From Ignavibacteriales bacterium (GTDB taxonomy: Bacteria; Bacteroidota; Ignavibacteria; Ignavibacteriales; Ignavibacteriaceae): DNA of 64,000 nt. The stretch covers positions 1-64,000 of the forward strand of contig JAGUYG010000040.1 of the NCBI GenBank assembly GCA_020061465.1, given 5' to 3'. Of this stretch, positions 41,798 through 58,598 are shown one piece after another. Each line of letters begins with the position of its first letter. Positions within the stretch are counted from its first letter, which is position 1. The notes below the pieces were generated by a model. That model did not search any database and was not told the DNA's origin. It was given only the letters and a program-made list of their open reading frames with translations. The position numbers were made by a program, and so were the translations under genes.

Positions 41798-42199
41798 TTA
41801 TTCCTTTACCTTGAAGTTGTGTTTAAGAAGGTTTTCTTTTGCTTTTTCAAGACTCACTTCTTTAAGCTTCATTCCACAGAGTGGGCATTCACCCGGTACA
41901 TCCGATATAACATTCCAGTCCATCTGATCCTGATAGACTTTACCATCTTTGTTTTTATCAATTGCGGTGAGATCAATTTCACCTTCTCTTACCCAAGATT
42001 CTTCATTAGTTTTAGTCGAATCCATCAGCATATTTTTATGATCTTTCATATCCATATGCTTGTGAGGAGCACCTTTCATTTCCATTTTATGTTTATGATT
42101 TGAATGAGCCTTTGAAGAGTCTTCCTGTGCAAAAGAAATGGCCACACTGAATGTAAATACGAACAGAATAAGTGTTAGGATTTTTGTTTTGTAGTTCAT
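41798..42199 (-). CDS. Exported heavy-metal-binding-domain protein, copy A
   Basis: I place the start at 42199 (MNYKTK), with AAAGGAGAT upstream. The protein of about 133 residues has a signal sequence (LTLILFVFTFSVAISFA) and a His/Met-rich stretch (HSNHKHKMEMKGAPHKHMDM). It ends with a heavy-metal-binding domain whose core is GECPLCGMKLKEV near residue 107. The C-terminal 50 residues are nearly identical to those of the partial gene at 63601-64000. A periplasmic copper/silver buffer or chaperone is likely. Confidence 0.8.
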   Translation of the reverse strand: MNYKTKILTLILFVFTFSVAISFAQEDSSKAHSNHKHKMEMKGAPHKHMDMKDHKNMLMDSTKTNEESWVREGEIDLTAIDKNKDGKVYQDQMDWNVISDVPGECPLCGMKLKEVSLEKAKENLLKHNFKVKE

Positions 42200-42237
42200 C
42201 TTATATCTCCTTTTAATTAATTGTTTATTGATTAAAA

Positions 42238-42669
42238 TCATTTTACTTTCCCGGCAGATTTTTCTTTCTTAATTACATTTCCGGTTAAAGTAAGATTAAT
42301 TGTGGGATTCTTAGGGTCATTTGTATCAACGGTGATAAGCCTATTTTGCTTGCCTGTTTTTCCTTTAGAATCAAACGTAACTTTTAAATTTGTCGATTCA
42401 CCCGGCTTTAATTCATTCTTTTCGGGCATTACTGCCGTACATCCGCAAGATGCGCTTACTTTGGTTATCTTAAGTGTGTCGCTGCCTTCATTTGCAATTA
42501 CAAAATATGTTGTTACGACCGAGTCCTGAATAATATCTCCAAAGTCGTAAGCCATCGGTAGAATTACAACTTTAGGTTCATTTTCGAATTGTGCTAAAGC
42601 AAAGCCTATAAACACAAAAAAGAACAGTACAGTCCATCTGCTGCAGCAGATTGATTTATTAAGTTTCAT
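42238..42669 (-). CDS. Exported DUF1573 protein
   Basis: The 143-residue protein has a signal sequence ending AQFEN and a DUF1573 (Ig-like) domain with DFGDIIQDSVVTTYF, SASCGCTAVMPEKNELKPGES and GNVIKK. The SCGCT cysteine pair is the hallmark of the family, which is widespread in Bacteroidota and has no firm function. Its stop overlaps the beginning of the next gene region. It stands in the first transcriptional unit behind the sigma-54-type promoter at 43.5 kb. Confidence 0.85.
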   Translation of the reverse strand: MKLNKSICCSRWTVLFFFVFIGFALAQFENEPKVVILPMAYDFGDIIQDSVVTTYFVIANEGSDTLKITKVSASCGCTAVMPEKNELKPGESTNLKVTFDSKGKTGKQNRLITVDTNDPKNPTINLTLTGNVIKKEKSAGKVK

Positions 42670-42725: not shown

Positions 42726-43064
42726 TCAAAGTGCTTCCGCACCTCGTTGTTTTCTTCTAATGCTTACAGCTTCGGATATATCCGAGACAAAAATCTTTCC
42801 GTCACCTTTTCTGCCGGTATGGGCTTTATCCAGGATTATATTTACAAATTTTTCAAGCTCATCATCCGTGCAAACAAGTTCTATCTTTACGCTGCTGCAA
42901 TATTTTTCACAATATTCTATAGACAATCTTGAATGTTCAGGATCTGCCCAGCCACCGAGTGTTGATACGTCTATAACAGTCATCCCTTTTATACCATTCT
43001 GTTCCAGGGCGGATATAACCCTATCAGTCATATCGGGTCTTATGTATGCCTTTATTTCTTTCAT
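42726..43064 (-). CDS. PII-type signalling protein, copy A (PII-NG-like)
   Basis: The 112-residue protein has the PII fold: MKEIKAYIRPDMTDRVISAL, KIELVCTDDELEKFV and the B-loop TGRKGDGKIFV near residue 88, with a C-loop RRKQRG near residue 105. The T-loop is not canonical: the uridylylated Tyr51 context is replaced by GGWADPEHSRLSIEYCEKYC. This matches the PII group encoded beside heavy-metal RND pumps (PII-NG). The twin gene at 59853-60191 indeed follows a CusA gene. Nucleotide-dependent control of the pump is suspected for the group. Confidence 0.85.
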   Translation of the reverse strand: MKEIKAYIRPDMTDRVISALEQNGIKGMTVIDVSTLGGWADPEHSRLSIEYCEKYCSSVKIELVCTDDELEKFVNIILDKAHTGRKGDGKIFVSDISEAVSIRRKQRGAEAL

Positions 43065-43528: not shown

Positions 43529-43544
43529 GAAAATAGAATGCCAG
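43529..43544 (-). promoter_or_regulatory. Sigma-54-type promoter 1
   Basis: On the minus strand CTGGCATTCTATTTTC has the GG of the -24 element and the TC of the -12 element at the spacing of sigma-54 promoters. The consensus is TGGCAC-N5-TTGC; here -12 is TTTC. Two other promoters in the window (44159-44174 and 54720-54735) share the same variant. It directs transcription into the long minus-strand metal operon beginning at 43476. Confidence 0.75.
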
Positions 43545-43603
43545 CATTAATAGTTGAAAAACATCTGTTAAATGAACTTTTTTTTGAAAAAGAGAATGCG
43601 GGG

Positions 43604-43639
43604 ATTTAAGGAATTTAAATATTTTAAAGGTTCTTAAAA
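43604..43639. promoter_or_regulatory. Tandem upstream activator sites of promoter 1
   Basis: Two palindrome-like sites lie at 43622-43639 (TTTTAAAGGTTCTTAAAA, distal) and 43604-43620 (ATTTAAGGAATTTAAAT, proximal). Their centres are about 89 and 70 bp upstream of the -24 GG and about 18.5 bp apart, nearly two helical turns. They match the sites of promoters 2 and 3. Confidence 0.75.
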
Positions 43640-43797
43640 AAGAAAGAAATTTCTTTGATTTGAGATTGAATATGTACAAGCCAAGGTATTTTAAAATTTA
43701 AGGCCCAACTAAGATGCAAACTTGAAAAGAGCGTGTTGACTTCGAAGTTCTTGTATTTTTATGGATTAAAGCAGTGTCTTTTCTATTTCAGGTTTGA

Positions 43798-44073
43798 TTA
43801 TTCATCTATAGCTGAAAGGTTCAATATCGCAGCTGTTTTAAAATCCTCTTTGGCTCCTTGAATATCCTCAATATTAACCTTAATAGTTCCTCTACTAAAA
43901 AAAAGTCCGGCATCCTTTGGATATATTTCTATTGCTTTGCTGTAGTCTTTTATTGCTTCAATATAGTTTCCAATATCGGCTTTTAATGTTCCTCTCTTTT
44001 TATATTCAAGAACATTAAAAGGATTTACAGATATAGCTTTATTACAAATTTCTATAGCATCTGTTTCTTCCAT
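43798..44073 (-). CDS. Small TPR protein
   Basis: The 91-residue protein consists of about two and a half tetratricopeptide repeats (for example YKKRGTLKADIGNYIEAIKDYSKAIEI) and has no signal sequence, so it is probably cytoplasmic. The ribosome site GGAGGTG is strong. The gene stands alone behind its own sigma-54-type promoter (44159-44174) and so is likely a monocistronic member of the regulon. Partners are unknown. Confidence 0.8.
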   Translation of the reverse strand: MEETDAIEICNKAISVNPFNVLEYKKRGTLKADIGNYIEAIKDYSKAIEIYPKDAGLFFSRGTIKVNIEDIQGAKEDFKTAAILNLSAIDE

Positions 44074-44158
44074 TTTGCACCTCCGATATTTTTTATAAGA
44101 AAATAGTTACTTCAGCTTTCGATACGACTTTCCCTTTACTATTATATATACTTAGCGG

Positions 44159-44174
44159 GAAAGAACAATGCCAG
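44159..44174 (-). promoter_or_regulatory. Sigma-54-type promoter 2
   Basis: CTGGCATTGTTCTTTC on the minus strand, the same variant as at 43529-43544 and 54720-54735. It is about 86 bp upstream of the small TPR gene at 44073. Confidence 0.75.
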
Positions 44175-44234
44175 AAGGGAAGTTTGGTTTTTTGTAAATA
44201 AGTGATAGAATAAGTGGAGTATATACATTTATGT

Positions 44235-44270
44235 ATTTAAAATTCTTAATTTTTTTTAAGATTCTTAAAA
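44235..44270. promoter_or_regulatory. Tandem upstream activator sites of promoter 2
   Basis: The distal site TTTTAAGATTCTTAAAA (44254-44270) is a perfect 17-bp palindrome. The proximal site ATTTAAAATTCTTAAT (44235-44250) is imperfect. Centres are about 90 and 71 bp upstream of the -24 GG, 19 bp apart. Confidence 0.8.
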
Positions 44271-44329
44271 GCGTTTCATCAGAGTTTAATAAGCAATATA
44301 GAAATCTCCTCCCTAAAAAATTATTTTAT

Positions 44330-46168
44330 TTAATCATAAGCGTTTAAAACATACTGTAGAGCCATACGATGAGTATTAAAAAAAGAAGCATTGATAGCAA
44401 TTGCATGACGCATTATATTGATCCAATACTCCCTGCCAACATAAAAAGTAGGAATTATTGCAAATTCTAATTTATCATATAAGGAACTTGCATCTTGCTG
44501 GTCGTTGCTTTCCATATTCTGAGGAGTACCGATAGACCATCCTGTAATGTCCTCAATGCATCCTTCAATCCACCAACCATCTAAAATACTTAAGGAAGGA
44601 ACACCATTATGTGCCGCTTTCATACCTGATGTACCGGATGCTTCCTGTGGTTTGCGTGGCGTATTAAGCCATAAATCAACACCGGAAACTAATAGTTTAG
44701 CTAGCTCCTTGTCGTAATTTTCAAGGTAAACAACTTTTATTTTGTTTTCCAACCATTTCGATGCGGCAATTATTTTCTTTATAAGGTCTTTGCCCATCCC
44801 ATCCTGTGGATGAGCTTTACCTGAAAAGATAAATTGAATTTTGCCTGCATCATTAGCGATTTTTATCAGCCTGTCAATATCAGAAAAAATCAAATCAGCC
44901 CTCTTATAAGAGGCAGCTCTTCTTGCAAATCCTATTGTGAGGGTTTTATAATCCATTTCTTTGCCAGTTTTTTCATTAACATAATCAATAAGTTTATTCT
45001 TCGCTTCTTGGTGAGCCTTCCATATATTATCACCCGGAATGCTCAAGGCATAACGCAGGCTAAAGGAATCGTTCTTCCAATCGGGAATATATTTATCATA
45101 GAGCTTTTTAAAACTTTCGCAAACCCACGTGGAAGAATGTACACCATTGGTAATAGATTCTATTGAGTATTCGGGGAACATCGAGCGAGATACTTCGCCA
45201 TGCTTTTTTGCAACACCATTTATGTATTTACTCAGATTTAAGGCTAGAAAAGTCATATTCAGTTGTTCTTCACCACCGAGCATCTTTAGAACATCCAGGG
45301 GCAAAAATCTCCTTAATGCATTGTTCACTAAATCGTAAGGGAACTGATCGTGCCCCGCTGGTACGGGAGTATGAGTAGTAAATACGCAAAGCTCTCTCAC
45401 TGCTTCAAAATTCAATTCCGCTTCTTTATTGTTTTTCATCTCCTTTAATAATTCGAGAGTTAAAAAAGCAGCATGCCCTTCATTCATATGATATTTTTTT
45501 ATTCCTGTATATCCTAGACTTTGAAGCATACGCACGCCACCAATACCCAAGACAATCTCTTGCAGCAATCTATACCATTGATTCCCGCCATAAAGGAAAT
45601 CATTAAGCCCCCTATCATATTCACTGTTTTCTTCTAAGTCGGTATCTAAAAAAATTATAGGTATAGAATAACTGCTTATGCCTAAAACATTATATTGCCA
45701 GGCGCCAATAAATATATCTCTGTTTTCTACTTTGATGCCCACTTTATTAGGTAAGGGTTTTAAAAAATCCTCGCGGTTCCATTGGACAGGCAATTCCTGC
45801 TGGTTTCCTTGTGCATCTAATTTTTGGTTAAAATAACCTTTCTCATATAAAAGTGTAACTGCTACCAGAGGTACTTTTAAGTCTGCACAGGATTTTATAA
45901 AGTCACCGGCTAAAATGCCCAGTCCGCCGCTATAGGTTGGGATAGAAGAATCAATTCCAATTTCCATAGAAAAATAGGCAATCTTTCTTTCCTTTATTTC
46001 CTCAGATTCATACGACCTATGTCTGTGCTTCAAATATTTATCTGGAGAATTCTTAAATTCATTTTTACATAAATTTGAGCAGAAATAAAATATCTTTCCC
46101 TTGAATTCATATTTAAATTCTTCTTTTGCAATCATTCCGCAAACGGGGTCTCTATCCATTTTAATCAT
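44330..46168 (-). CDS. YHS domain fused to alpha-glucan phosphorylase
   Basis: The 612-residue protein has two parts. Residues 1-50 form a complete YHS domain, RDPVCGMIAKEEF with FYFCSNLCKNEF, like the metal-binding proteins around it. Residues 60-612 are a glycogen/alpha-glucan phosphorylase (GT35, short TIGR02094 class): YFSMEIGIDSSIPTYSGGLG near residue 64 and the PLP-lysine region SGTSGMKAAHNGVPSL near residue 510. I have not seen YHS fused to a phosphorylase described. The start at 46168 follows AAAGGCT closely. The gene ends the unit of the third sigma-54 promoter. Confidence 0.9.
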   Translation of the reverse strand: MIKMDRDPVCGMIAKEEFKYEFKGKIFYFCSNLCKNEFKNSPDKYLKHRHRSYESEEIKERKIAYFSMEIGIDSSIPTYSGGLGILAGDFIKSCADLKVPLVAVTLLYEKGYFNQKLDAQGNQQELPVQWNREDFLKPLPNKVGIKVENRDIFIGAWQYNVLGISSYSIPIIFLDTDLEENSEYDRGLNDFLYGGNQWYRLLQEIVLGIGGVRMLQSLGYTGIKKYHMNEGHAAFLTLELLKEMKNNKEAELNFEAVRELCVFTTHTPVPAGHDQFPYDLVNNALRRFLPLDVLKMLGGEEQLNMTFLALNLSKYINGVAKKHGEVSRSMFPEYSIESITNGVHSSTWVCESFKKLYDKYIPDWKNDSFSLRYALSIPGDNIWKAHQEAKNKLIDYVNEKTGKEMDYKTLTIGFARRAASYKRADLIFSDIDRLIKIANDAGKIQFIFSGKAHPQDGMGKDLIKKIIAASKWLENKIKVVYLENYDKELAKLLVSGVDLWLNTPRKPQEASGTSGMKAAHNGVPSLSILDGWWIEGCIEDITGWSIGTPQNMESNDQQDASSLYDKLEFAIIPTFYVGREYWINIMRHAIAINASFFNTHRMALQYVLNAYD

Positions 46169-46220
46169 AGCCTTTAATTTTTAATTAAGTATTTCTTTAC
46201 TTTTAAGATCTTTTTTTCAT

Positions 46221-48419
46221 TCATATTTTTAAGTTTATACCAATAACTGGAATTAATGGGAACACGGTCATCTGCCTCTTTGATGTATAGTCAAGATTAT
46301 AAATCCAATGAACTACATTATTGTTATTTAATACATTCAAAATTTCAATATAAAGTTCCAGTGGAAGATAGTTTAAATAGAACAATCTTGTTAAGCGGAC
46401 ATCAAGTCTGCTGTAAGAAGGATAACGCGCCGAATTTTGGCTGCCAAGTAAAGGGAAGAATTTCTCTGCACCTTTATCAAAATAACTGCCTAAAACCGGT
46501 ATGTAAGGTGTCCCAGTGCCAAATCTGTATTTTGCTCCTACCGACCAGACATCTGAAAATTTATAATTAAACACTGCACTTATAAGGTGAGTTCTATCAA
46601 AACTGAATAATTCTTCGCTGCGGATTAAACCTTCTTTTCTTTTAGCAATAGAGTAAGAATATGATATCCACCCTCCAATGTTTTCATTCGGTTTTATCTG
46701 CAAATAAATTTCCGCACCTCTTGCATAACCGAATCCTTCACTTGATAAATTTTGAGTTTCATTATCATAAGAGCCTAAATCATAAAAATTTTTTTTGTAC
46801 AATTCAAGATTTACAATCAGTTCATCTGATAACTGGTGCTTTATACCAAAACCAATACTTTCAGCTTTTTTGAAGTCAAGCGAAGGATTAGCAGCTGATT
46901 CATAAGCTAACGGTGACTGATAATACCAACCATAGTTAAAAGAAAGGCTCATATGTTCGTTCCAGTCGTAAGCGAAATTGAATCTTGGGGACAAAACGCC
47001 TTTCTTAATTTTATCAAGATAGTCGAACCGAAGCCCTGCGTTAAATGAAAGCTGATCTGTAAGTTTAACTTTGTCTTCACCATAAACAGAATAAAGAACA
47101 TCTTTCCCTGAAGATTTAATTTGATAATCTTCAAGTGTGTAAAAATTTATCTCGCCAGGAAGTCTTACAGAAGCTTTATCATCTTTAACTATTAACCATC
47201 CGCCTATATGTATTTCGTGGCTATTAAATAGGAAAGACAAATCATTCTTCAATCCATATTCTTTAATATTATAATTTTCAAAAGAGTTCAAGGGATAAGT
47301 AGATTCTTTATCTGCTCTTGAATAATATATATTTAGCTCATTTACAGAATTGTCGGATAAAATAAGATTTAAACTTGTGCCAAAGGATTGATTGTATCCA
47401 TCTGAATTCATTGCTCCGCTAAAATGGTCATAGTTAAAAACTCCATAAAGATTTTCAAAAGAATTGAGCCCGGTTATAGTCAATTTCCCAAGGTTCGAAA
47501 GATTGAAATCAAGCTTTCCGTAGAAATCATAGAAGTAGGGAACAGCGGCTGATTCACCTTTTAAATCGGGTAATAAATTATATACTACATCAAAGTAACT
47601 TCTTCTTGCAGAAATAAATCCAGATCCGTTCAAACCATTTAATGGAAATTCTATTATCCCATTTAAATCTGTTAAGCTTAGATTAACTTCTCCGTTAAAC
47701 TGATTTACACTTGCAGTTTTATTATTAATTGCTAAAACCGAAGATAATCTATCTCCGTATCTTGCCGGAAATCCTCCGGCATAAAATTTAACATCTTCAA
47801 CGAGGCGAGAATTAAAAATGCTGAATAAACCTCCGCCCATAAACTCAAAGTGATAAGGATTTGCAATAGTTGCACCATCAAAAAGGATTAGATTTTCAGA
47901 AGCGTTTCCACCGCGCACATAAAGTTTGGAGTCATCACTTCCACTTGAAACCCCGGGAAGTGTTTGCAATGTCCAGAATATATCTTGGGCAGAACCGGGA
48001 GAATGCTTAATCATATTCCGGTTTAACTTAGCTGTCAAGCCGGTTGCATCATATTTTTCTGGTTTGGGTGTTATAACAACGGATTGAAGGTATATAACTT
48101 TTTCAGTTAATGATGTGTCAATTGAGATTACTTTATTTACCCTTGCATTTAAGTTCTCTATAATCAATTCTTCATACCCAATCATTGATATGCGAAGACT
48201 ATAAATACCTTCCGGAATTTTAATTGAAAAATTTCCTTTTAAATCAGTGGCAGCACCATAGCTTGTATTTATGACCAAAATATTTACTCCAGCAAGTGGT
48301 TGGTTATTAGTATAATCTTTTACAGTGCCCCTGATGATTGCTTTATCGAACTGGTTTTGAGCAAGAACAAAATTTCCAACAAAAAAAAAGAAAATTATTT
48401 TTAACATAATCTGTTTCAT
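46221..48419 (-). CDS. TonB-dependent outer-membrane receptor
   Basis: I place the start at the ATG 48419, with AAGGA upstream. The 732-residue protein has a signal sequence (LKIIFFFFVGNFVLAQ), a CarboxypepD_reg-like domain (residues 27-110), a plug with SPGSAQDIFWTLQTLPGVS near residue 138, and a beta-barrel that ends in a typical strand (IPVIGINLKI). Context suggests import of a metal complex (copper or iron). No specific ligand residues are visible. Confidence 0.9.
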   Translation of the reverse strand: MKQIMLKIIFFFFVGNFVLAQNQFDKAIIRGTVKDYTNNQPLAGVNILVINTSYGAATDLKGNFSIKIPEGIYSLRISMIGYEELIIENLNARVNKVISIDTSLTEKVIYLQSVVITPKPEKYDATGLTAKLNRNMIKHSPGSAQDIFWTLQTLPGVSSGSDDSKLYVRGGNASENLILFDGATIANPYHFEFMGGGLFSIFNSRLVEDVKFYAGGFPARYGDRLSSVLAINNKTASVNQFNGEVNLSLTDLNGIIEFPLNGLNGSGFISARRSYFDVVYNLLPDLKGESAAVPYFYDFYGKLDFNLSNLGKLTITGLNSFENLYGVFNYDHFSGAMNSDGYNQSFGTSLNLILSDNSVNELNIYYSRADKESTYPLNSFENYNIKEYGLKNDLSFLFNSHEIHIGGWLIVKDDKASVRLPGEINFYTLEDYQIKSSGKDVLYSVYGEDKVKLTDQLSFNAGLRFDYLDKIKKGVLSPRFNFAYDWNEHMSLSFNYGWYYQSPLAYESAANPSLDFKKAESIGFGIKHQLSDELIVNLELYKKNFYDLGSYDNETQNLSSEGFGYARGAEIYLQIKPNENIGGWISYSYSIAKRKEGLIRSEELFSFDRTHLISAVFNYKFSDVWSVGAKYRFGTGTPYIPVLGSYFDKGAEKFFPLLGSQNSARYPSYSRLDVRLTRLFYLNYLPLELYIEILNVLNNNNVVHWIYNLDYTSKRQMTVFPLIPVIGINLKI

Positions 48420-48496
48420 CTTCAATCCTTGCTCATTTAATCTTCACTTGCCTTTGTAATCTATTTTTTGTTTTGAAGATGTCCTTAATTTCTATT

Positions 48497-48541
48497 TTAA
48501 GCATCCCTTCGGGACACTCCGTATACCGGGTCAGATACCAT
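48497..48541 (-). pseudogene. Remnant of a YHS gene, C to Y, cut by a repeat
   Basis: A GAGGATAAAA ribosome site and an ATG at 48541 lead into MVSDPVYGVSRRDA and then a stop. The first nine residues match the start of a YHS domain (compare MIKMDRDPVCGM and VRDPVCGM), with tyrosine in place of the metal-binding cysteine. The frame then runs into the palindrome CCCGAAGGGA, also found between narG and narH. A decayed YHS gene interrupted by a repeat is likely. Confidence 0.55.
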
Positions 48542-48621
48542 TTTTATCCTCGTTTTTTAATCAACTTTTTTTCGCAAACGCTCGGAAACAATAATTTTTT
48601 CTATATACTCTGATACTTTCA

Positions 48622-49116
48622 TTAAAATGAATTAAGCGGGATGCTCAATGAAAACATCGCTGTGTTAGTCGACGCATCGTAGCGCAACGAAATATTCTGA
48701 TTGTATCGTTCAGCCGAATACCCCGCATCAAATGCGCTAATGATCTTTACTACTATGTATCCCACCAGCAAATAATAAAACTGGATCCGTTCTGCTGTAG
48801 TCCATGAAGGGCGGTAATCTGAGCCATAATAATTTGAATAATTATGCATTCCCCATGACCAGCTATTGCGTCCGAGCAAAACGGCTGCCGGTACAAAAAG
48901 GATAAGTTCTGCAGTTGTGTAGATAATTCCACGTTCCCAATTGCCAATATAAAAATTTCCTAAATCAACAGGCAGCGGTTGAATCGAAAGCAGCGCAGCA
49001 GTTGTAGGGTCTTTTCTATTAGCATTGTCAACTCTACCTCTGCCGTGATGTTGAGCGAACCCATTGCTTGATGCTAGAACAATCAATAGCACTACAAAAA
49101 AAACAATTCGTTTCAT
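48622..49116 (-). CDS. Small exported membrane protein, copy B
   Basis: The 164-residue paralogue of the protein at 39288-39773. It shares the signal sequence, the His-rich start (HHGRGR), the core LLSIQPLPVDLGNFYIGNWERGIIYT near residue 44, and the end of FDAGYSAERYNQNISLRYD. Having two copies in the two transcriptional units supports module duplication. The family is unrecognised beyond a DUF5683-like core. The ribosome site is GAGGTTACA. Confidence 0.7.
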   Translation of the reverse strand: MKRIVFFVVLLIVLASSNGFAQHHGRGRVDNANRKDPTTAALLSIQPLPVDLGNFYIGNWERGIIYTTAELILFVPAAVLLGRNSWSWGMHNYSNYYGSDYRPSWTTAERIQFYYLLVGYIVVKIISAFDAGYSAERYNQNISLRYDASTNTAMFSLSIPLNSF

Positions 49117-49167
49117 TGTAACCTCATTGGATATAGAGTTTCGTACTTAGTTAGTATGTTCTTAAAA

Positions 49168-49782
49168 TTATCTGAACATAAAGAGCATTATTATTGCCAT
49201 TACACCGGCGCTGATTAAGACGACAGGAGATATGCCATATCCTGTCATATTATCACCATTTTCTGAATGTTGATCCACTTGACTTAATAGTTGAATGGTT
49301 TGGTCAACTTCGGTTGGTGGATCTATCGTAACATTTCCAACTCTTTCTAAAACAAAAATAAATTTATAAGCGCCCGTGTTTTTGATTGATGGACGAAAAA
49401 TATACGTCCCATTATTAATTCCGTCCGGTAAAAATTTCAATTCTTTCATCTTCCCGTGATCGGAATGTGAGTCTTGTCCCCGACTATTATCCGTAGTTAC
49501 AATCAATGAAATTGATGCATCGGAGATAATTAATTTTTCGCGAACATCATAAAGAGTAACTTTATAAGCCAGTTCATCGCTTAAAGTATATGGCGGAAAT
49601 TCAGCAGTAATTTTTATCCCATTAACAACAGATTCCTTTACGATTGTTTGACCGTTCATAGAAGAACCATGTGAATCTCCATGCGTATCGCCGCCCCCGG
49701 TGTGCCCCATTCCTCCCATACCGAGCATCATGCAGCCGCTGAGAAAAAGTGGCGTTAGAAGAGTTAAATAAATTTTGTTCAT
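49168..49782 (-). CDS. His/Met-rich lipoprotein with C-terminal helix
   Basis: I place the start at 49782 (MNKIYLT). The product of about 204 residues has a clear lipobox LFLSGC near residue 14, followed by a Met/Gly/His-rich stretch (MMLGMGGMGHTGGGDTHGDSHG). A beta-rich domain comes next (residues 55-160), with ISLIVTTDNSRGQDSHSDHG, and then a C-terminal membrane helix (ISPVVLISAGVMAIIMLFMF). A copper-binding surface lipoprotein is plausible from the composition. The beta domain could be Ig-like (CopC or FixH style). Confidence 0.7.
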   Translation of the reverse strand: MNKIYLTLLTPLFLSGCMMLGMGGMGHTGGGDTHGDSHGSSMNGQTIVKESVVNGIKITAEFPPYTLSDELAYKVTLYDVREKLIISDASISLIVTTDNSRGQDSHSDHGKMKELKFLPDGINNGTYIFRPSIKNTGAYKFIFVLERVGNVTIDPPTEVDQTIQLLSQVDQHSENGDNMTGYGISPVVLISAGVMAIIMLFMFR

Positions 49783-49827
49783 AGCGTCTCCATTATTTAG
49801 TTTTTTAAACAATTATTGATGATGAGA

Positions 49828-49938
49828 TTTGTGTTCTGATTCATTAGTCGAATTCTTAATCATATCGTGTTTCATCTTACTACTTTCACCGTTCATCATC
49901 TTCATCATCATTTCGATCTTCATATTGCTATCTAATGA
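49828..49938 (-). pseudogene. Met/His-rich short frame, probable gene fragment
   Basis: A 36-codon frame starts at the ATG at 49938, MKIEMMMKMMNGESSKMKHD, and ends ...HKSHHQ. No ribosome site precedes the ATG, and an in-frame stop lies about ten codons further upstream, with CIDKISLDSN just before the ATG. The composition is that of the Met/His-rich proteins of this region. It may be the tail of a lost gene or a very short peptide. Confidence 0.35.
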
Positions 49939-50019
49939 AATCTTATCTATACATTTTTCTCAACACAAACTCGGTTTAATGTAAGCGTAATCTTTTCCGG
50001 GTAATACCTCAAAGAAAGC

Positions 50020-50973
50020 TTATTTATTTAAAGAACTACCCAAATACATATTTAAGGGCGAAGCACTTTCAAAAAAACCGGGATTCTGATTTATTAATTT
50101 TTCTGCAATCGAAAAGGCTTCGCCTGATTTCGATTTCTCACCCATTATCTTGTACAAGATGCCAAGCAAAAAATAGGCATCTGCATCCCCAGGATTTTTT
50201 TCTATTTCAGTCATCACAGATTTTACAGCATCTTTATATTTCCCTTCGAGGTATTCCTGCTGTGCTTTGATAAGATTTAATTGGGGCAAATCTGGTAAAA
50301 GTATTTCAAGCTGCTTAATATAACGCCGGGAATCTGTAAGCTTATTTTGATTTTGATATAAAATGACTAAACCTTTTCTTGCTTCTATTAAATCAGGACC
50401 TACAACTAAAGCTTTCTTAAAATAGATTTCAGCTTCATCAGTAAGCTCATTTTGAAGATAGAACATTCCGAGTGCCTCAAGTATCTTTCCGTTTCGTGGT
50501 TCTATCTCAGATGCTTTATTCAAACTAATTACTGCATTATATAATTCTCCGGCTGTGCCGTAAACCATCCCGAGACTAAAAAGTGCAGATGCATTATCGG
50601 GTTGAATGGTTATTGCTTTATTCAGAAAATCTTTAGCTTTGTCAAAATCCTTTTGAACTGAATAGATTACCCCAAGGATTATTAAAGCATCTACATTATT
50701 TTTATCTATGCTAAGAATTCTTTCATTATAAAATTTTATAGAAGGGATATTTTGCTGCGCCATAGCAATTTGGGACAGATATGTTAAAGCTTTGATGTCT
50801 TCAGGGAATCGTTCAAGGTAATCTATAAACACTTTTTTGGCTTCATTAAAATTGTTTTCCTGAAAGTAAGCTTCGCCTTGTTTAAATAAAGCTTCGGCTT
50901 TTTTATCACTTTGTGAATACATTCCTACTGAAAAGAAGGAAAGTATAACAAGAAATATATATTTGTTTTTCAT
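50020..50973 (-). CDS. Exported TPR protein, copy B
   Basis: I place the start at 50973 (MKNKYIFL), which has AAAGGT upstream; a longer frame begins at 51009. The protein of about 317 residues has a signal sequence and about seven tetratricopeptide repeats. It is the paralogue of the protein at 35846-36802 and has the same [12 protein letters not shown] segment near residue 71. It directly follows the intact Met-rich protein gene, as copy A follows the broken one. A scaffold role in the periplasm is inferred. Confidence 0.85.
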
Positions 50974-50986
50974 TTTTTTACCTTTC

Positions 50987-51439
50987 TTACATGAGATTTT
51001 GAGCTTCATCCATATTATCCATCATATCTTCGAAATTATCTATTATCTCATCCATATTCTCTATCAAGTCTTCCATCATGTTTCTGAACTCACCGTTATT
51101 CATTAGTCCTTTATCATCCATCATATTTTTCATTTGCTGGGTCATATTTTTCATATCACCAGACATCTGGCTCATATATTTCATCAAGGGCATCATATTT
51201 TCGTGCTTCATACCTTGCATTTTCTGATGCGTTCCCATATCCTGATGTTGCTGCATCATGTCATCCATGCGCTTTGATATATCATTCATTCTGTTTATCA
51301 CATTCTGCATTTGATTCATTTGCATATTCATTTGTCCTTGCTTTTGTGTTCCGTGATCATGCTGCGCAATGAGATTTGATTGAAATACAAAAAAAATTAT
51401 TCCTGCCAATAGTAATTGGGCCATTCTCAGCGGTTTCAT
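50987..51439 (-). CDS. Met-rich exported protein
   Basis: The 150-residue protein has a signal sequence ending IAQHDHG. The mature part is very rich in methionine, glutamine, aspartate and asparagine, as an almost continuous coiled-coil-like helix ([19 protein letters not shown] and similar). Methionine-rich chains bind copper(I) and silver(I) in the periplasm. The broken copy is at 35613-35831. It has no recognisable family name. The function as a copper buffer is inferred from composition. Confidence 0.8.
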
Positions 51440-51468
51440 ATTTTATTCCTTATTTACTTTTTGATGAT

Positions 51469-51499
51469 ACCAACCGACACGATAAGCGTGACGGTTGGT
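51469..51499. repeat. Hairpin repeat ACCAACCGACACG (copy 1)
   Basis: ACCAACCGACACG (51469-51481) and CGTGACGGTTGGT (51487-51499) form a 13-bp stem with one mismatch and a 5-base loop. A degenerate copy lies at 53720-53750, on the other side of the nine-haem cytochrome gene. It may be a terminator-like or mobile hairpin. Confidence 0.75.
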
Positions 51500-51557
51500 T
51501 ATTGATTTATTTTCTTATTACATCATTCGTCATTATTTACTATTAGGATATTTGTCG

Positions 51558-53690
51558 TTATTTCAAGAGGACTATTTTCTTTGTCTCTCTGAATGCTTGT
51601 TTTCCATCACCAGCAGTTGCTTCCATGGAATAGAAGTAAACACCTGAGGCAATACTTCTTCCAATGGAGTTAGTGTCGAAAGTTATTTCATAATTCCCAG
51701 TTTGTTTAACTTCATTTATCAATTCAGCAACAATTTGTCCATTACTATCATAAACTATAATTCTAACTTTATTTTCGTAAGGTATTGAATATTTAATTGT
51801 CGTTGAAGGGTTAAACGGATTGGGATAATTCTGTAAAAGGACATAATTCTTTGGAAGAGTTCCTGATTCTTCATCTGCGGAACTTACTCCTTTAACCGCC
51901 TGAATAGACTTAACCAGTACATCAATTATGAACATTGCGTTGTGCATTCCTTCGCTTCCATCATTATTAACCAATTGGTAGTTCCAGTATGCTTTTTTAA
52001 TGGTTAGGTCATTTAGATCACGTATTAATTCCCAGGAGATAGAATCTATTCCAACTGGAGGCAAGACAATTCTTAAATTTCTTTCAAGCCCTTCTATTTC
52101 TTCAGGAATGCTGCCTTTTGTTCCGTTATTATCGTAATCTTCTGTAGCAATAAAATCATCCCAACTGGTTATACTTCCATGACAGTTAGCACAAGCTGTG
52201 GTATGATAATAATTATTTTCCTCGTTGTGCAGTATCCACGTATGATCACCGACATTGTCACGGTTAACATTCCCTGTATCCGGCGTTGCTACCATATGGC
52301 AATCAACGCACGCATTGGTTACTGCGAATTTATGTGGACCCGACAAAAAAGGTGAATCAAATTCTGCCGCATTTTGTCCTAAGAAAACATCTGTCTGAGG
52401 TGATTCGTGAGGTCCCCAAAATGCAGAAGTAACATTTGTCTGAACATAACTTACATTATCTCTTCTGGACTTATGGCAATTCATACATAATTGCCCTTTG
52501 CCTCCCTCAGTATAGCGATAACCATTTCCCAATGTATCAGACCCAACAGGAGTAAATCTTAAAGAATATTCGTTTGTGTTGCCATGAGGATCATGGCAAA
52601 CTGCACAGGAGATCATCTTCCGATTTGCTTGTATCATCCCAGTCGTATTTGTAGTCTGCCCTTTGGTAAAATTAACAAAGCCTTGTCCGTCATGACATCT
52701 GATACAATTATTCAAGTTATTTGTTTGAGATTCGGAACCTTGTGCAAATGAATTTGACCAAACAAGATTTGAGTGCAGTGAATTCTCCCACTGAGCAACT
52801 TTGTTTTGCCTCGAGGGATTGTCATGACATTGAGCACAATTCCCTGCGTCAATGGAAATTTGAATCATCTCAGTATTTCCACCATTAAATGCATGCTCAC
52901 TTCCAGGTCCATGGCAGCTTTCGCACCCAATGGTTGCAAGATTAACTAAGGCGGGATAATCTGCTTTGAGCGAATCCCATTTACCCGGACTCGGTGGTCC
53001 CTGCCATGCCCAACCCAACGATTTAGCCATATCATCAAAACCGCCGTTGCTCGCTACAATGTACTTATCAGTTCCGATAGTGTGGCAGTTAAAACATGAA
53101 GTTCCGTAATAAGAGGGACCTTGGGTAATCATTGTCTTAAACATCTGAGCATGACCGGAAACCTGCCAGCGATCAAATATTTCAGAAAATTCCGGGGATG
53201 ACTGATGACAAGTCATACATTTCGGGAACTGACCTGATATACCCTCGAAATTTCCAACACCTATAAAATCCGCAGCGTAAATTGTCTTAGTTGTGTCGTC
53301 CGTACCGCTTGATGTTGTAATTGTTAGCTTGATTATATATGAACCTTTTACCTCGGGTCTGAATTGCACCCATGTTGGATTAATAATTTCGAGAGTAATA
53401 TTTGAACCAGTCGGTTGGGATAACAATTCGTATACGGTTGAATTTATTGGTTCACTATTGCCAATATTTCTCGCAGATAAATAAACATAAGTTTCATTAG
53501 GAACAGTATTCAATCCGGTAGAAACCGAATTAGTATTTATTCCTAATGTTTGAAGTTTGTAAGGAGAAATAGCTTCTGTAATTATATTTGCTTTTTGTGC
53601 GAATACAGAAATAATTCCGGCAATCAGAAAGATTATTATAACTAAGGAGCTTTTGTTGATTCCCCACATGGAAAAAGCAATTTTATTCAT
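51558..53690 (-). CDS. Secreted nine-haem cytochrome c with type IX sorting domain
   Basis: The 710-residue protein has a signal sequence and nine CxxCH haem motifs: CMTCH, CFNCH, CESCH, CAQCH, CIRCH, CAVCH, CMNCH, CVDCH and CANCH, between about residues 155 and 510. Spacing and context resemble cytochrome c554/NrfA-like scaffolds. It ends in a C-terminal sorting domain starting NYPNPFNPS and ending KKIVLLK. It is therefore expected at the cell surface and could transfer electrons outside the cell. Flanking hairpin repeats suggest it is a movable cassette. Confidence 0.93.
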   Translation of the reverse strand: MNKIAFSMWGINKSSLVIIIFLIAGIISVFAQKANIITEAISPYKLQTLGINTNSVSTGLNTVPNETYVYLSARNIGNSEPINSTVYELLSQPTGSNITLEIINPTWVQFRPEVKGSYIIKLTITTSSGTDDTTKTIYAADFIGVGNFEGISGQFPKCMTCHQSSPEFSEIFDRWQVSGHAQMFKTMITQGPSYYGTSCFNCHTIGTDKYIVASNGGFDDMAKSLGWAWQGPPSPGKWDSLKADYPALVNLATIGCESCHGPGSEHAFNGGNTEMIQISIDAGNCAQCHDNPSRQNKVAQWENSLHSNLVWSNSFAQGSESQTNNLNNCIRCHDGQGFVNFTKGQTTNTTGMIQANRKMISCAVCHDPHGNTNEYSLRFTPVGSDTLGNGYRYTEGGKGQLCMNCHKSRRDNVSYVQTNVTSAFWGPHESPQTDVFLGQNAAEFDSPFLSGPHKFAVTNACVDCHMVATPDTGNVNRDNVGDHTWILHNEENNYYHTTACANCHGSITSWDDFIATEDYDNNGTKGSIPEEIEGLERNLRIVLPPVGIDSISWELIRDLNDLTIKKAYWNYQLVNNDGSEGMHNAMFIIDVLVKSIQAVKGVSSADEESGTLPKNYVLLQNYPNPFNPSTTIKYSIPYENKVRIIVYDSNGQIVAELINEVKQTGNYEITFDTNSIGRSIASGVYFYSMEATAGDGKQAFRETKKIVLLK

Positions 53691-53719
53691 AACAAACTCC
53701 GTATTTATTTTTTAATGAT

Positions 53720-53750
53720 ACCAACCGACGCAATAAACGTGACGGCTGGT
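53720..53750. repeat. Hairpin repeat ACCAACCGACGC (copy 2)
   Basis: A degenerate second copy of the hairpin at 51469-51499 (ACCAACCGACGC... GGCTGGT) upstream of the cytochrome gene. The sequence on both sides of the stem is also alike in the two copies. Confidence 0.6.
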
Positions 53751-53766
53751 TAATGATTTAATTAAG

Positions 53767-53797
53767 GCAGGCGTAATCTTTTCGGATTGCGCCCTGC
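53767..53797. repeat. Hairpin GCAGGCGTAATC
   Basis: GCAGGCGTAATC (53767-53778) pairs with GATTGCGCCCTGC (53785-53797), with a mismatch or bulge, around a short loop. The core GCGTAATCTTTTC also occurs near 49985. It is a small dispersed palindromic repeat in the gap before the cytochrome gene. Confidence 0.5.
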
Positions 53798-53818
53798 AAA
53801 AATTTTGTAGACACCGCA

Positions 53819-54622
53819 CTATTTCTTTTTCTCCATTCCCGTCTCAAGAATAATGGGAATACTATTGACGCCTACTGGCACAAAATAGAAAGACGCATTT
53901 CCACTTTTTGCTAATTCCTTCTGAATATCAAGCGCACGATACTGGAGATAAGTTGGAGTAAGTGTGCTGTCAATTATCCTTTGAGCAGTCTGCTGACCTT
54001 GTGCCTCGATAATCTTGATTGTGGCATCTTTCTCGGCAATCTTTAGCTCGAATTCCTTCTGCAACAGTTTCTGTTCAGTTGCCAGTTTTAGATCTGCAGC
54101 TTGTTTAACTCGCTCAGGATATTCTACATGCTTAATCTCTACGGCATCCAGTTCAAGATGCTTGTTCACAAGGTTCTCTTTGAGCTGAGCTAATATGGTA
54201 TTTTGAATCTCGAGACTCTTCTTGGGGATATCCGTGTATCTGTACTGAGAAAATACTGCTCTTGAGATAGAGCGAAATTGCTGCTGCACAACTTCCGCGT
54301 AATACTCTTGACCAATCTCAGTATGCAATAAATACAACTCACGGGGATTAGGTCGTAGCCGAAGTGCAACCTCTACATCCATATGAAGATCGTCCAGTGA
54401 AAGAATGTCCACCTTCTCGCTCTGTGTTTTCCAGCGGACGTCATATAAGATGACACTGTTCCATACCCATTCCCATTTGAACTCATTACCGTAAACCGTG
54501 GTATCAACTCCACTATAAGTTCCCCAATGGAGTCCCCCATAACCACCCGGGATTGTTGTTCCACAGCCTACCAGCAAAACCACTGCAAGCAAGCTAATGA
54601 TAATCACGTATTGCGTTTTCAT
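53819..54622 (-). CDS. SPFH-domain lipoprotein
   Basis: The 267-residue protein has a lipobox (VVLLVGC, residues 14-20) and an SPFH/prohibitin domain. Hallmarks are LHMDVEVALRLRPNPRELYLLHTEIG, the helix QQFRSISRAVFSQYRYTDI and a long helical arm ending in AEKDATIKIIEAQGQQTAQR. SPFH proteins oligomerise at membranes; a lipidated periplasmic version is less common. It is the first gene behind the third sigma-54-type promoter, which suggests that it is strongly induced. The nine-haem cytochrome follows. Confidence 0.8.
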   Translation of the reverse strand: MKTQYVIIISLLAVVLLVGCGTTIPGGYGGLHWGTYSGVDTTVYGNEFKWEWVWNSVILYDVRWKTQSEKVDILSLDDLHMDVEVALRLRPNPRELYLLHTEIGQEYYAEVVQQQFRSISRAVFSQYRYTDIPKKSLEIQNTILAQLKENLVNKHLELDAVEIKHVEYPERVKQAADLKLATEQKLLQKEFELKIAEKDATIKIIEAQGQQTAQRIIDSTLTPTYLQYRALDIQKELAKSGNASFYFVPVGVNSIPIILETGMEKKK

Positions 54623-54719
54623 AGTTTTTCTCCTCCGAGTTAAATTTGTCTTCTGCTCTGTTCTGCCTCTTGAGCAGTATTTTACAGAAGCTATTGGTGT
54701 TACTTTATTTTTTCAGAAA

Positions 54720-54735
54720 GAAAGTATAATGCCAG
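54720..54735 (-). promoter_or_regulatory. Sigma-54-type promoter 3
   Basis: CTGGCATTATACTTTC on the minus strand, the same variant as promoters 1 and 2. It is about 98 bp before the SPFH lipoprotein gene. Confidence 0.75.
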
Positions 54736-54795
54736 GATGAAACATTGTGAAAGGTCATTAAATTGCGGTTTGAATTGATGTTAAAGAATCTAGTG

Positions 54796-54831
54796 TTTTA
54801 AATAGTTTAATTTTTTTTAAAGTTCTTAAAA
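54796..54831. promoter_or_regulatory. Tandem upstream activator sites of promoter 3
   Basis: The distal site TTTTAAAGTTCTTAAAA (54815-54831) and proximal site TTTTAAATAGTTTAA (54796-54810) have centres about 90 and 70 bp upstream of the -24 GG, 20 bp apart. The geometry equals that of promoters 1 and 2. The pair lies just after the stop of the PD-(D/E)XK-like gene. Confidence 0.75.
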
Positions 54832-54848: not shown

Positions 54849-56102
54849 TCATACAGACTTTGCAATTTTTTCCATAATAAAATGTGTGTCACCGAATCTG
54901 CATATTGCATCACAATTTGTTCTCAACTCAGAAAACAAAATATATTTTATAGGGACTGATATTTTTTTTATTGAAGGCCTGCTAAGCTGTAAAATAACAT
55001 CTTTTTCCCTGCTGTCAGGGATAATTATATAAAACACTTCATCACCATCTGCAATTGAGTAAGCCAAATCTGTAAGTCTTAGAATCCCCGAATATATACT
55101 TGTGCTTTTTTCTACTTCGAAAGCTCCAACAATATTGTTAGTGTCTTTTTTAAACCAAAGAACGTCAACCAATTGAATTGTATTAAGAGTTTCTTTATCT
55201 ACCTGAATAAAAGGAAATGTATTCAAACATAGGAATGAAAAATTTGAATCGTTGTAAGATTTTGATAAATCATTTCTGGCACAAATTACATCATAGCCCA
55301 GGGCTTTCCCTATTTTAAGCAAATGATATTGCATTTCGGAATGAAGGCTTTCTTCTTTCTTTTCTTCAATGATTTCTTTTTTTCGTTTATAAAAAAGCAA
55401 TTCTAATTTTTTTCGTTCATCGTCAGTAATATATTCATCACTTCCTACTAAAAGTCTTTGTATTCCGATTTCATACAACATTCCTGTAAAGGCTCCCAAA
55501 TCAAGAGAAAATTCTTGTTGATACCTCTTATTAGTTTTTACTATTACTTCCCTGATTTTTAAATAGTCCTCCCATGAACCCAGTTTCTTTTTATCCTTGA
55601 ATAAATAATTGAACCCTTTAATAATTGCCGTATTAAAAGGCGTGATAATTGTCGGATGAAGAAAATATAAAATACTGGCTACTGCCGGACCAAGACCTTT
55701 AATTTTATAAGAGTCTATTTTGATTATTTCTTTAATTACTTGCTCTTCTTTTGCAGCGAAGAGAACATTTTCCAGGAATTGACCAAAGGTTATTTTATTA
55801 TTTTCATTTTCGTAAATATCGGGAATTCTCAACTTCGGTTTCCAGAAAAAAGGATGTGCCGCCCCTTCAAAAACTTGTTTCTGTTCAGTAATGCAGGTTA
55901 GAACGAACTCAAGCGAGCTTCCTTTAAAATCATTCCCAAATTTTTTTTGTTTGATGTCTTCAATAACCTGCATTACACCTCGCCTAATGGAGCGAAAAGC
56001 TTTTAGTCTCTCCTCATTATTGATAAACCAGGTGTTATAAACTGATTCCTTGTCCTCTTTATACTGTTTAATAATAGAGCTAAAATTTATTTCCATATTC
56101 AT
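54849..56102 (-). CDS. Helix-hairpin-helix plus PD-(D/E)XK-like nuclease protein
   Basis: I do not recognise the exact family. The 417-residue protein has an N-terminal helical part with a hairpin motif [18 protein letters not shown] near residue 127, typical of DNA-binding proteins. The C-terminal domain (about residues 245-400) has [25 protein letters not shown] and [20 protein letters not shown], which fits a PD-(D/E)XK nuclease fold with an E-x-E variant like that of some type II restriction enzymes. Its start overlaps the stop of the regulator gene (ATGA). A metal-stress or defence role remains open. Confidence 0.6.
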
Positions 56103-57508
56103 TCAGCTCTCTCTTTAAACGGTGAAAGATTATAAGTTTCAATCTTGCTATATAAAGTTGGCAATGATATACCGAGAATTTTATACGCTTTATTTTTATT
56201 CCATTGAACAGCATCGAGCACTTTTTTGATATGATTTCTTTCATTTTCAGACAGAGTAATAAATTGAACACGCTCTTCTTTTATTTCTGATTGTTCCGGC
56301 TTTCTAACTTGTCCCTTTGGGATGAGTATATTTTCTTTATTCAAAACATCATCAGTAGAAAGTACAACTGCCTGCATCAGAGTATTTTCTAATTCCCGTA
56401 CGTTGCCTATCCAATAGTTATTCTTTAACATTTCCATTACTTCTTCAGGGATTTTGGTAACATTTTTATGAAGCTCTTTATTAATCTTCACAAGGAGATG
56501 ATTAACCAGTAAAGGAATATCTTCGATTCTATCTCTTAAGGGAGGTAATTTGATAGATACAACTTTTAATCTAAAATATAAATCTTCTCTGAACTTTCCC
56601 TCACGAACAAGAGCATTTAAGTCTTTATTTGTTGCAGCAATTATCCGGGCACTCATAGGAATTATACTTTCACCGCCAACTCTTTCAAATTCCTTCTGCT
56701 GAAGTATTCTTAATAATTTTACCTGAAGATTATGGGATATTTCGGAAATCTCATCTAAGAAAATTGTTCCTTCTCCGGCTAATTCAAACTTACCTTTCTT
56801 ATCACGAATTGATCCGGTAAAGGCACCTTTAACGTGTCCAAACAATTCGCTTTCAAGGAGAGATTCGGTTAGAGCAGTACAGTTAACAGGAACAAAGGGC
56901 TGGCTCTTCGTAATACCACTGTAGTGAATTGCTCTTGCAACTAATTCTTTACCGGTAACACTTTCACCTTCAATAAGAACAGTAACCCTGCTGGAAGTTG
57001 TTTGTCCGATTAATTTATAAACATCTTTCATTATTGGAGTCTTACCGATCAGAGTATTTTCCAGTTGATATTCTTCAGCTTCTGTCGAAATAAACAAAGC
57101 AAGCTGCTCACTCATCTTTTTATTTTCAAGCGCACGATTGATGATAATCTTCAGCTTATCAATCTCGAGCGGTTTTTCAATATAATCATAAGCTCCCTGC
57201 TGCATTGCCTCAACTGTACTGTGCATATCATCTAAGGCTGAGATTATAATAACCTGAATATACGAATCAATTTCTTTTGCCTTTTTTAATACTTCGAACC
57301 CATCTGCACCGGGCATTTTTATATCGGTTATTACTAAATCGGGATGCTCAGCATCTGCAAGTTCAATTCCATCTAACCCGTTATTAGCAGAATAAATATC
57401 AAAATTTAATTTCTTTAAATAACTTGTTAGCGTTTTTCTAATTGATTCATCATCATCAATTACTAAAATCTTATTTCCCGCAGGGCGGTGCGCCTGCAGC
57501 GAATTCAC
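56099..57508 (-). CDS. Sigma-54-dependent NtrC-family response regulator
   Basis: I place the start at the GTG 57508, one base after the upstream stop, with TTGGGTGA as ribosome site; a longer frame starts at 57550. The protein of about 469 residues has a receiver domain ([14 protein letters not shown], phospho-Asp in VITDIKMPG near residue 60), an AAA+ domain with Walker A GESVTGKE, the sigma-54-contact loop GAFTGS near residue 228 and Walker B IFLDEISE, and a Fis-type DNA-binding end ([14 protein letters not shown]). GAFTGS and the valine in Walker A depart from GAFTGA and GESGTGKE. Confidence 0.95.
57480..57505. repeat. GC-rich palindromic repeat in the regulator N-terminus
   Basis: The segment encodes SLQAHRPAG directly before the receiver domain. 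It is a near-palindrome (CCCGCAGGGCG and CGCCTGCAGCG) that is out of keeping with the AT-rich context. It resembles short GC palindromes of the same region at 57825-57847 and 59580-59594. Confidence 0.55.
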
Positions 57509-57509
57509 T

Positions 57510-58598
57510 TCACCCAATATTATTTTCCTTTTCTGAAGAACTAAGACCATCAGTTATTGTAACTTCCTTAAAAGGCAGTGTTATTTCAAAAATTGTTTTT
57601 CCTTGCTCTGATGAAACAAGCTTAATTCTACCTTTGTGCTGCTCTACTATTTTTTGAGCAACGGATAAGCCCAATCCTGTTCCGGATGATTTTGTGGTAA
57701 AAAATGGTTCAAAAATTTTCACATCCTCTTTGATACCTTTTCCTGTATCCCTAACAATTATAATTATTATTTTTTTTCCATCACCTATTTCTATTGTTGA
57801 TGTTATCTCTATCTCTCTGTTATTACCTGCCTGTCCGGTAGGCAGGTCCGGATATAAAAATTTAACAAGGTCAGTCCTTCCAAATGAATTCCATCTGCTT
57901 TCTACCGTAGTTGTTTTGACCGATGGATTACTCTTTAGCCTTAGCAAATCCTTTTCTGATGATTTAGCAATGTTTATTTCAACATCAGGTGTTATAAAGA
58001 TTATTAAAAGAGAAACAAATATTGCAGAAAGTGTTATTATCAAGTATCCTTTCCTGATTTGTGTCTCAAGTTTGAAGGCAGTTAACGCGGCAATAGAAAA
58101 AACAAATAAAATAATTGAGAGTGCCTGAATTATACTAAAAGTGTTAAGTAATAATAACCCCAGTAATGAGCCAGCCGCTGCACCAATCATATCAAAAGCA
58201 TATAGTATCCTGCTTTTATCTCCGTTAGCCTGGAATATAGAAGCTGTAATAATGCCAACCAGAAAGAAAGTAACACCCGCTAGAAGAATATAAATAATTA
58301 AACCAACCGAGCCGCTGCCTATGCCTTCAACTGAAGCTAAAATAAAAACCGCAGCAAGACTGATCGGAAATAGTAATAAAAGGACAATGAAGTATTTGGA
58401 AAATGAAAATGAGTTTTTTACTGCTAAACGCGATGCATAAAGCTGTCCTAAAGCCAGCGCAAGTATAGCAAATGCAATTATGATAAAGACAAAATGATAT
58501 GCAAGCACATAAGAAAAAATTCTTGCAAGAATTATCTCAAAACTTAAGGTAGAAAGCGAAAGTAGAAAAATTATAGAGAAAGGTTTAAGACTTTTCAT
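57510..58598 (-). CDS. Chimeric protein: spermidine-synthase-like membrane part joined to histidine-kinase ATPase tail
   Basis: The 362-residue frame has two unrelated halves. Residues 1-250 are six or seven membrane helices (SLSTLSFEIILARIFSYVLAY) ending in SRWNSFGRTDLVKF, as in membrane spermidine-synthase-like proteins just before their SAM domain. After PDLPTGQAG near residue 253 comes the end of a histidine-kinase ATPase: DTGKGI, FEPFFTTK and GTGLGLSVA. The H-box and N-box are missing, so kinase activity is unlikely. The junction is a 23-bp palindrome. Either a recombination product or an assembly join. Confidence 0.75.
   Translation of the reverse strand: MKSLKPFSIIFLLSLSTLSFEIILARIFSYVLAYHFVFIIIAFAILALALGQLYASRLAVKNSFSFSKYFIVLLLLFPISLAAVFILASVEGIGSGSVGLIIYILLAGVTFFLVGIITASIFQANGDKSRILYAFDMIGAAAGSLLGLLLLNTFSIIQALSIILFVFSIAALTAFKLETQIRKGYLIITLSAIFVSLLIIFITPDVEINIAKSSEKDLLRLKSNPSVKTTTVESRWNSFGRTDLVKFLYPDLPTGQAGNNREIEITSTIEIGDGKKIIIIIVRDTGKGIKEDVKIFEPFFTTKSSGTGLGLSVAQKIVEQHKGRIKLVSSEQGKTIFEITLPFKEVTITDGLSSSEKENNIG
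57825..57847. repeat. Palindromic repeat ACCTGCC...GGCAGGT at the chimera junction
   Basis: ACCTGCC (57825-57831) and GGCAGGT (57841-57847) form a palindrome of 23 bp. In the minus-strand frame it encodes DLPTGQAG. Repeats that encode GQAG are common in such genomes. It sits exactly where the two halves of the chimeric gene meet. Confidence 0.75.

Follow-up and report, generated by a model that had tools for sequence, protein, structure and literature searches.

The 64,000-nucleotide stretch analysed here (the window; positions 1 to 64,000 of contig JAGUYG010000040.1 of an Ignavibacteriales bacterium) very probably contains part of a compact sigma-54-dependent copper/silver-resistance regulon, in which one NtrC-type activator, most likely the response regulator RR2, would act through enhancers of four TTAA half-sites on at least six promoters in two registers. 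In the mechanism we propose, a membrane sensor kinase would phosphorylate the NtrC-type regulator, most likely its neighbour RR2 (Table 1), which would bind the four half-sites, arranged as two tandem palindromes 19 bp apart, and, with a short DNA loop in between, contact sigma-54 RNA polymerase (for enhancer distance and DNA looping in general see PMC7057263, for tandem palindromes PMC6296734). The bound regulator would open at least P1-P3, P4 (CusCBA-like), P5 (YHS) and P6 (CopA-like ATPase, cupredoxin and YHS), from an enhancer that stands either near the promoter (about 60/79 bp) with TTG at -12, or far from it (about 71/90 bp) with a -12 that is mostly TTTC. The sequences and their positions, their conservation and their co-occurrence with the activator are observed; from these we infer that the regulator binds, that sigma-54 is needed, where the operons end, which metal is involved and that RR2 is the activator. 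Copper or silver is suggested by the target genes only (TIGR01511, the CusA/CzcA family, cupredoxin and YHS).

The three promoters within the window had been proposed in a sequence-only reading, which placed them correctly; all are on the minus strand. The exact 16-mer CTGGCATTNTNYTTTC has three matches in the 4.2-Mb genome, namely P1, P2 and P3. From the palindrome centres to the first G of the -24 GG we measured 89/70 bp for P1, 90/71 bp for P2 and 90/71 bp for P3, in agreement with the 89-90 and 70-71 bp given previously, and the earlier spacing of 18.5-20 bp was close, each pair being 19 bp apart. Alternatively, each of these enhancers can be described, by eye, as four TTAA half-sites that follow one another at 9-10 bp. 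PMC12316311 gives the sigma-54 consensus as TGGCAC-N5-7-TTGCT, from which validated deviants exist. Here the -24 TGGC with its GG is present, P1-P4 all reading TGGCATT, and the -24/-12 spacing is correct, the place of the -12 GC being ten bases after the GG; that GC is absent, with TTTC in P1-P3 and TTCC in P4.

Table 1 Promoters, predicted activator sites and genes of the proposed regulon (positions of the window unless marked contig)
Feature	Position	Strand	Remark
P1 -24/-12 element CTGGCATTCTATTTTC	43529-43544	-	identical in relative G148
P1 tandem predicted activator sites	43604-43639	-	distal 43623-43639, proximal 43604-43620
P2 -24/-12 element CTGGCATTGTTCTTTC	44159-44174	-	
P2 tandem predicted activator sites	44235-44270	-	distal 44254-44270, proximal 44235-44251
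P3 -24/-12 element CTGGCATTATACTTTC	54720-54735	-	
P3 tandem predicted activator sites	54796-54831	-	distal 54815-54831, proximal 54796-54812
P4 -24/-12 element	contig 66876-66891		
P5	contig about 70797	+	precedes gene of 57-residue YHS protein
P6	contig 94510		found by scan for tandem sites alone
HMBD (heavy-metal-binding domain) protein, presumed P1 operon	41798-42241	-	
DUF1573 protein, presumed P1 operon	42238-42669	-	
P-II-like gene, presumed P1 operon	42726-43064	-	by eye near-copy of 59853-60191
Small secreted-looking Cys-containing protein, first gene after P1	43180-43491	-	without match in Pfam or NCBIfam
TPR protein, first gene after P2	43798-44073	-	
Multihaem cytochrome with C-terminal sorting domain, presumed P3 operon	51558-53690	-	
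SPFH/Band 7 protein, first gene after P3	53819-54622	-	
RR1, NtrC-type response regulator	56099-57550	-	diverged paralogue; activator of the earlier reading
Fused remnant of presumed RR1 kinase	57510-58598	-	HATPase end only retained
P-II-like protein after CusA	59853-60191	-	matches PF00543
CusA/CzcA-family efflux pump, presumed P4 operon	60213-63365	-	TIGR00914, 1200 vs cut-off 701 bits
RR2, NtrC-type response regulator	contig 67017-68405		
Complete membrane sensor kinase preceding RR2	contig 68402-70561		

A loosened -24/-12 element is not informative alone: the 16-mer with up to two mismatches gave 142 genome matches against 78 in the reversed control, and TGGCAY-N5-TTKC gave 14 against 22, hence no excess. 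The latter comparison also does not support TTTC as a general sigma-54 feature of this genome. Eight of the 11 TGGCAY-N5-TTKC matches besides P1-P3 lie inside ORFs longer than 90 aa and three do not, and by eye the palindrome pair is absent upstream of all six one-mismatch copies of the 16-mer in the genome. The genome-wide scan that the sequence-only reading had put forward as its check, run with the combined pattern TTTAAGNNNYTTNAA-N60..90-TGGCA, yielded six matches against none in the reversed control: P1-P4, all outside ORFs of at least 90 aa, and two off-locus matches on other contigs, both inside ORFs (138 and 238 aa). The 799,000 bases of 42 stretches that surround activator homologues contained 40 promoter-plus-pair matches at cut-offs chosen after inspecting the palindrome-to-GG distances of promoters already found; five Markov shuffles gave 1, 0, 0, 0 and 2, and the reversed sequence gave 0. 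Single parts of the pattern are common when taken alone, as expected if the promoters were chance matches in AT-rich DNA, but the outcomes of six against none and of 40 against at most two per shuffle leave that explanation a negligible probability. On the scale of the phylum the loose combined pattern is by itself not specific, since control matches were common too; its matches, found in 118 of 395 genomes, are mostly background.

Six promoters (P1-P6), each with one of two site geometries, lie on one contig between 43.5 and 94.6 kb, a number that is a lower bound because one tandem pattern misses P2 and P3 and another misses P1. P4, just outside the window (combined-pattern match at contig 66886-66987), has the same geometry as P1-P3 and precedes a CusCBA-like operon comprising an outer-membrane efflux protein, a CusB-type adaptor with heavy-metal-binding domains (194 bits, under its NCBIfam cut-off of 390 bits) and the CusA/CzcA pump. 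Downstream of P6 stand, in this order, the genes of a Met-rich 129-residue protein, a CopA-like copper P-type ATPase (TIGR01511, 624 bits vs a cut-off of 397 bits), a cupredoxin and a double-YHS protein. A further tandem-site match, on contig 116, lacks a convincing promoter; we regard it as chance. As to the co-regulated genes that had been proposed, the metal genes are supported and the set is larger, with at least six promoters that include those of the CusCBA-like and CopA-like operons. The sequence evidence thus supports P1-P6 as a real co-regulated set of sigma-54-type promoters with phased tandem sites for a predicted activator.

We then compared family genomes (mostly drafts, with rows related by descent and downstream genes named by eye). 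Close activator orthologues (E <= 1e-200) occur in 15 of 80 genomes; tandem sites are found in 14 of these 15, which carry 52 of the 64 matches, and the remaining 12 matches are spread over nine of the other 65 genomes. The reversed control gave six matches in all 80 genomes and none in the 15 (in these counts a palindromic site may count on both strands, and the contig 116 match of the source genome is deemed chance). Tandem sites therefore appear to track the presence of the activator. The one genome with the activator and no tandem sites, G427, is a draft with the activator on a 3.1-kb contig. In G426 and G461, which are among the nine, a site and promoter stand by eye before the same kinds of gene, so that the activator may be missing from incomplete assemblies. 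The recognition helix IS[LIV]PTLYSKI is found in all 14 of the 15 genomes that were compared (all except G451), and eight rows outside the 32-row clade of the tree read otherwise. The helix alone does not predict sites, since G184 and G373 (58-60% identity) have it and no such site was found at their locus. Of ten loci found in one search, seven are 74-82% identical; they belong to draft genomes or to a chromosome, under the labels Ignavibacteriota, Ignavibacteriales or Bacteroidetes.

These comparisons bear on an alternative in which the palindromes would be bound by an unrelated protein of AT-rich DNA and the promoters read by another sigma factor. The missing -12 GC would fit this proposal, as would the fact that TTAA arrays are simple AT-rich DNA, but the tandem sites follow the activator across the 80 genomes and stand at a fixed distance from a sigma-54-type GG, and we regard it as highly improbable. 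For sigma-54 itself, the genome has one copy of RpoN (PF04552, E 2.7e-60), which rules out a second RpoN dedicated to TTTC promoters.

The choice of activator departs from the sequence-only reading, which had named RR1, at 56.1-57.5 kb. RR1 and RR2 are 81% identical, and RR2 has a receiver, an AAA+ sigma-54 domain, a Fis-type helix and an intact P-loop, GESGTGKE. As the sole or main activator RR1 would have in its favour its place near P3, its retained receiver, AAA+ domain and Fis-type helix, and a recognition helix identical to that of RR2, which leaves room for RR1 to bind the sites as well, perhaps in a modulating role. Against such a role, its P-loop reads GESVTGKE where 36 of the 41 rows compared have GESGTGKE (two GESVTGKE rows being the RR1 gene read twice, and a draft sequencing or assembly error being possible), its presumed kinase is mostly lost, and its branch is longer than that of RR2. 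In the tree, RR2 groups with the orthologues of G148 and G402 (96/96), and RR1 falls outside the other seven rows of its group (fork 91/92, not starred). We therefore consider RR1 improbable in that role and RR2, with its complete kinase, the better and most likely candidate as judged from these features. Both regulators score under the cut-off of 760 bits of the ZraR equivalog NF007689 (RR2 368 bits, RR1 346 bits). At the position of the GAFTGA loop RR2 reads GSFTGS, and GAFTGS or GSFTGS is common among its orthologues. A coupling of the GAFTGS loop to TTTC was ruled out, as G070 and G066 combine GAFTGS with TTGC, and G396b combines GAFTGA with TTCC. In the remnant of the RR1 kinase, the N-terminal part (about 250 residues) has no Pfam match and is membrane-spanning by eye, the junction to the HATPase end is a short palindrome at 57845, and the gene looks like a deletion fusion. 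The start of a gene for a 417-residue protein without a Pfam match (54849-56102) overlaps the RR1 stop codon.

The tandem sites occur at two distances from the -24 GG, near (about 60/79 bp) and far (about 71/90 bp), and since the shift between them is one helical turn, the same face of the helix is kept. In the 40 matches of the 42 stretches, the proximal centre lay at 58-61 bp in 15, at 70-73 bp in 17 and elsewhere in 8. In the alignment of these matches, selected by a promoter score that treats G and T alike at that -12 place, TTG stood at -12 in 15/15 near and 0/17 far promoters. A count without any -12 criterion, which kept every row, including cases where a near-promoter TTGGC at -12 was recounted as a far -24, gave TTG in 15/16 near and 0/22 far. 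The widest count took in more loci (GG[CT]A used, rows with an identical 46-base key dropped, double readings retained); here TTG was present in 18/19 near and 2/30 far rows, TTTC or TTCC in 19/30 far rows, and rows at other distances had 5/88 of each kind. The exceptions were two far promoters with TTG (L172, L178), nine far promoters with neither TTG nor TTTC/TTCC, and a single near row lacking TTG (window 21842), which is probably chance. Fisher P values of 1e-9 (count without a -12 criterion) and 3e-10 (widest count) overstate the evidence, because the classes were set after seeing the 42-stretch data and related rows are not independent. The far class, which holds P1-P3, is thus almost never TTG and the near class almost always. 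Within this genome, two promoters of the same regulon have TTG at -12, TTTC goes with the far geometry, and one TTTC promoter is found next to a more distant activator (57% identical); the TTTC shared by P1-P3, previously thought to be perhaps a family-specific variant, thus characterises neither the regulon as a whole nor the organism.

Conservation between P1-P4 and their counterparts in G148 amounted to 23/24 positions in the -24 hexamer, 15/16 in the -12 tetramer, 18/20 in the spacer and 174/280 in the flanks. P1 is uninformative here because its flanks are nearly identical to those of G148. At P2, all 15 bases of TGGCATTGTTCTTTC are kept and the flanks have diverged, which argues that TTTC matters.

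A different interpretation of the far class is that the promoter has been placed in the wrong register: TGGCA would be the -12 element, the -24 would lie 12 bp upstream, and the enhancer distance would be equal in both classes. The 11-12 bp shift does equal the -24 to -12 distance, L150 and L151 (far in the alignment, from order-level relatives) are readable as near promoters too, and several near promoters carry TTGG at -12. However, P1-P4 have no GG at the needed place (by eye in the alignment), the P2 15-mer is retained down to its TTTC in G148 despite the diverged flanks, and when promoters are aligned on TGGCA the upstream context looks, by eye, alike in both classes. We consider this shifted register unlikely.

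If the two registers are taken as distinct, they could constitute a two-state promoter code, an idea that we hold as plausible and somewhat short of probable. One activator would serve an enhancer that is near or far, the far register would go with loss of the -12 G (TTTC for TTGC), and register and -12 base would be tuned together to set leakiness or strength, with slips between the states when a -12 TTGGC becomes a new -24. The register of the promoter preceding the outer-membrane efflux gene differs among relatives: G132, G148, G398 and G396 have the far form, G070 and G066 the near one. Under such a code, close relatives would have their pumps in the far state and their YHS and ATPase genes in the near state. 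The occurrence of the same activator site at two distances that agree in helical phase, and with two -12 sequences, amounts to a natural experiment on the construction of sigma-54 promoters; since both forms occur even inside one genome, distance and -12 base can each be swapped and measured.

Metal-responsive systems of related kinds are known. In E. coli the copper/silver two-component system CusRS controls a CusCBA-type pump (CusCFBA) through CusR, an OmpR-type regulator, unlike the NtrC-type regulator considered here. As described in parts of PMC3707914, CorSR of Myxococcus xanthus is likewise a copper-related two-component system, whose regulator combines PF00072, PF00158 and PF02954 and acts together with sigma-54, and among the products of its curA operon are a CopA ATPase and a protein with a cupredoxin domain, a likeness by description. 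It differs in that the target operon, which has four putative sigma-54 promoters, contains corSR itself, and those parts of the description contain neither a four-part TTAA enhancer nor two registers; the present regulon would thus be like CorSR in kind, with an unfamiliar enhancer and two promoter forms. ZraSR of E. coli, according to parts of PMC7657598, resembles it in pairing a sigma-54-dependent metal-responsive regulator with a kinase and in having few direct targets, but these are zraP, zraSR and mgtA, and a direct role in resistance to zinc, the metal in that case, is disputed. The DVU2275 activator of Desulfovibrio vulgaris has an AT-rich palindrome as here, and its targets in the relevant parts of PMC4641369 are pyruvate formate-lyase genes, not metal resistance. 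Our search of the open-access literature, outside which most subscription papers lie, returned no description of this regulon, so within that literature the earlier label of an undescribed regulon stands. The same search found no paper on Ignavibacteria with sigma-54, and the words for Ignavibacteria and copper are absent from the main text of PMC12316311, which surveyed sigma-54 regulons in 2025. What emerges is a small, well-defined candidate sigma-54 metal-resistance regulon in an uncultured Ignavibacteria-like bacterium, for which candidate activator, kinase, sites and targets can all be named. New here are the two enhancer distances one helical turn apart, paired with two -12 sequences; the regulon also recurs in related genera.

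Several further features of the genome were noted alongside the regulon. The two P-II-like genes are closely similar, and each lies within a presumed metal operon of the regulon. Within the metal island, 44330-46168 encodes an alpha-glucan phosphorylase-family protein with a YHS metal-binding domain at its start, and beside P6 (G000 contig 57, 92973-94327, L167) a MerR-like regulator and a MerT/HMA-like transport protein were recognised by eye. In a scan of ten more distant activator homologues (downstream within 700 bp, G or T required at the third -12 place), the gene was followed in six cases, 82-137 bp on, by a TGGCA site with TTG, and one had TTTC. The latter is a third paralogous activator (G000 contig 109, 20243-21770, L143), followed by TGGCACCATTCTTTC, a TTTC -12 that falls outside the regulon, with a palindrome that is, by eye, a different one, and then by genes that may be curli-like.
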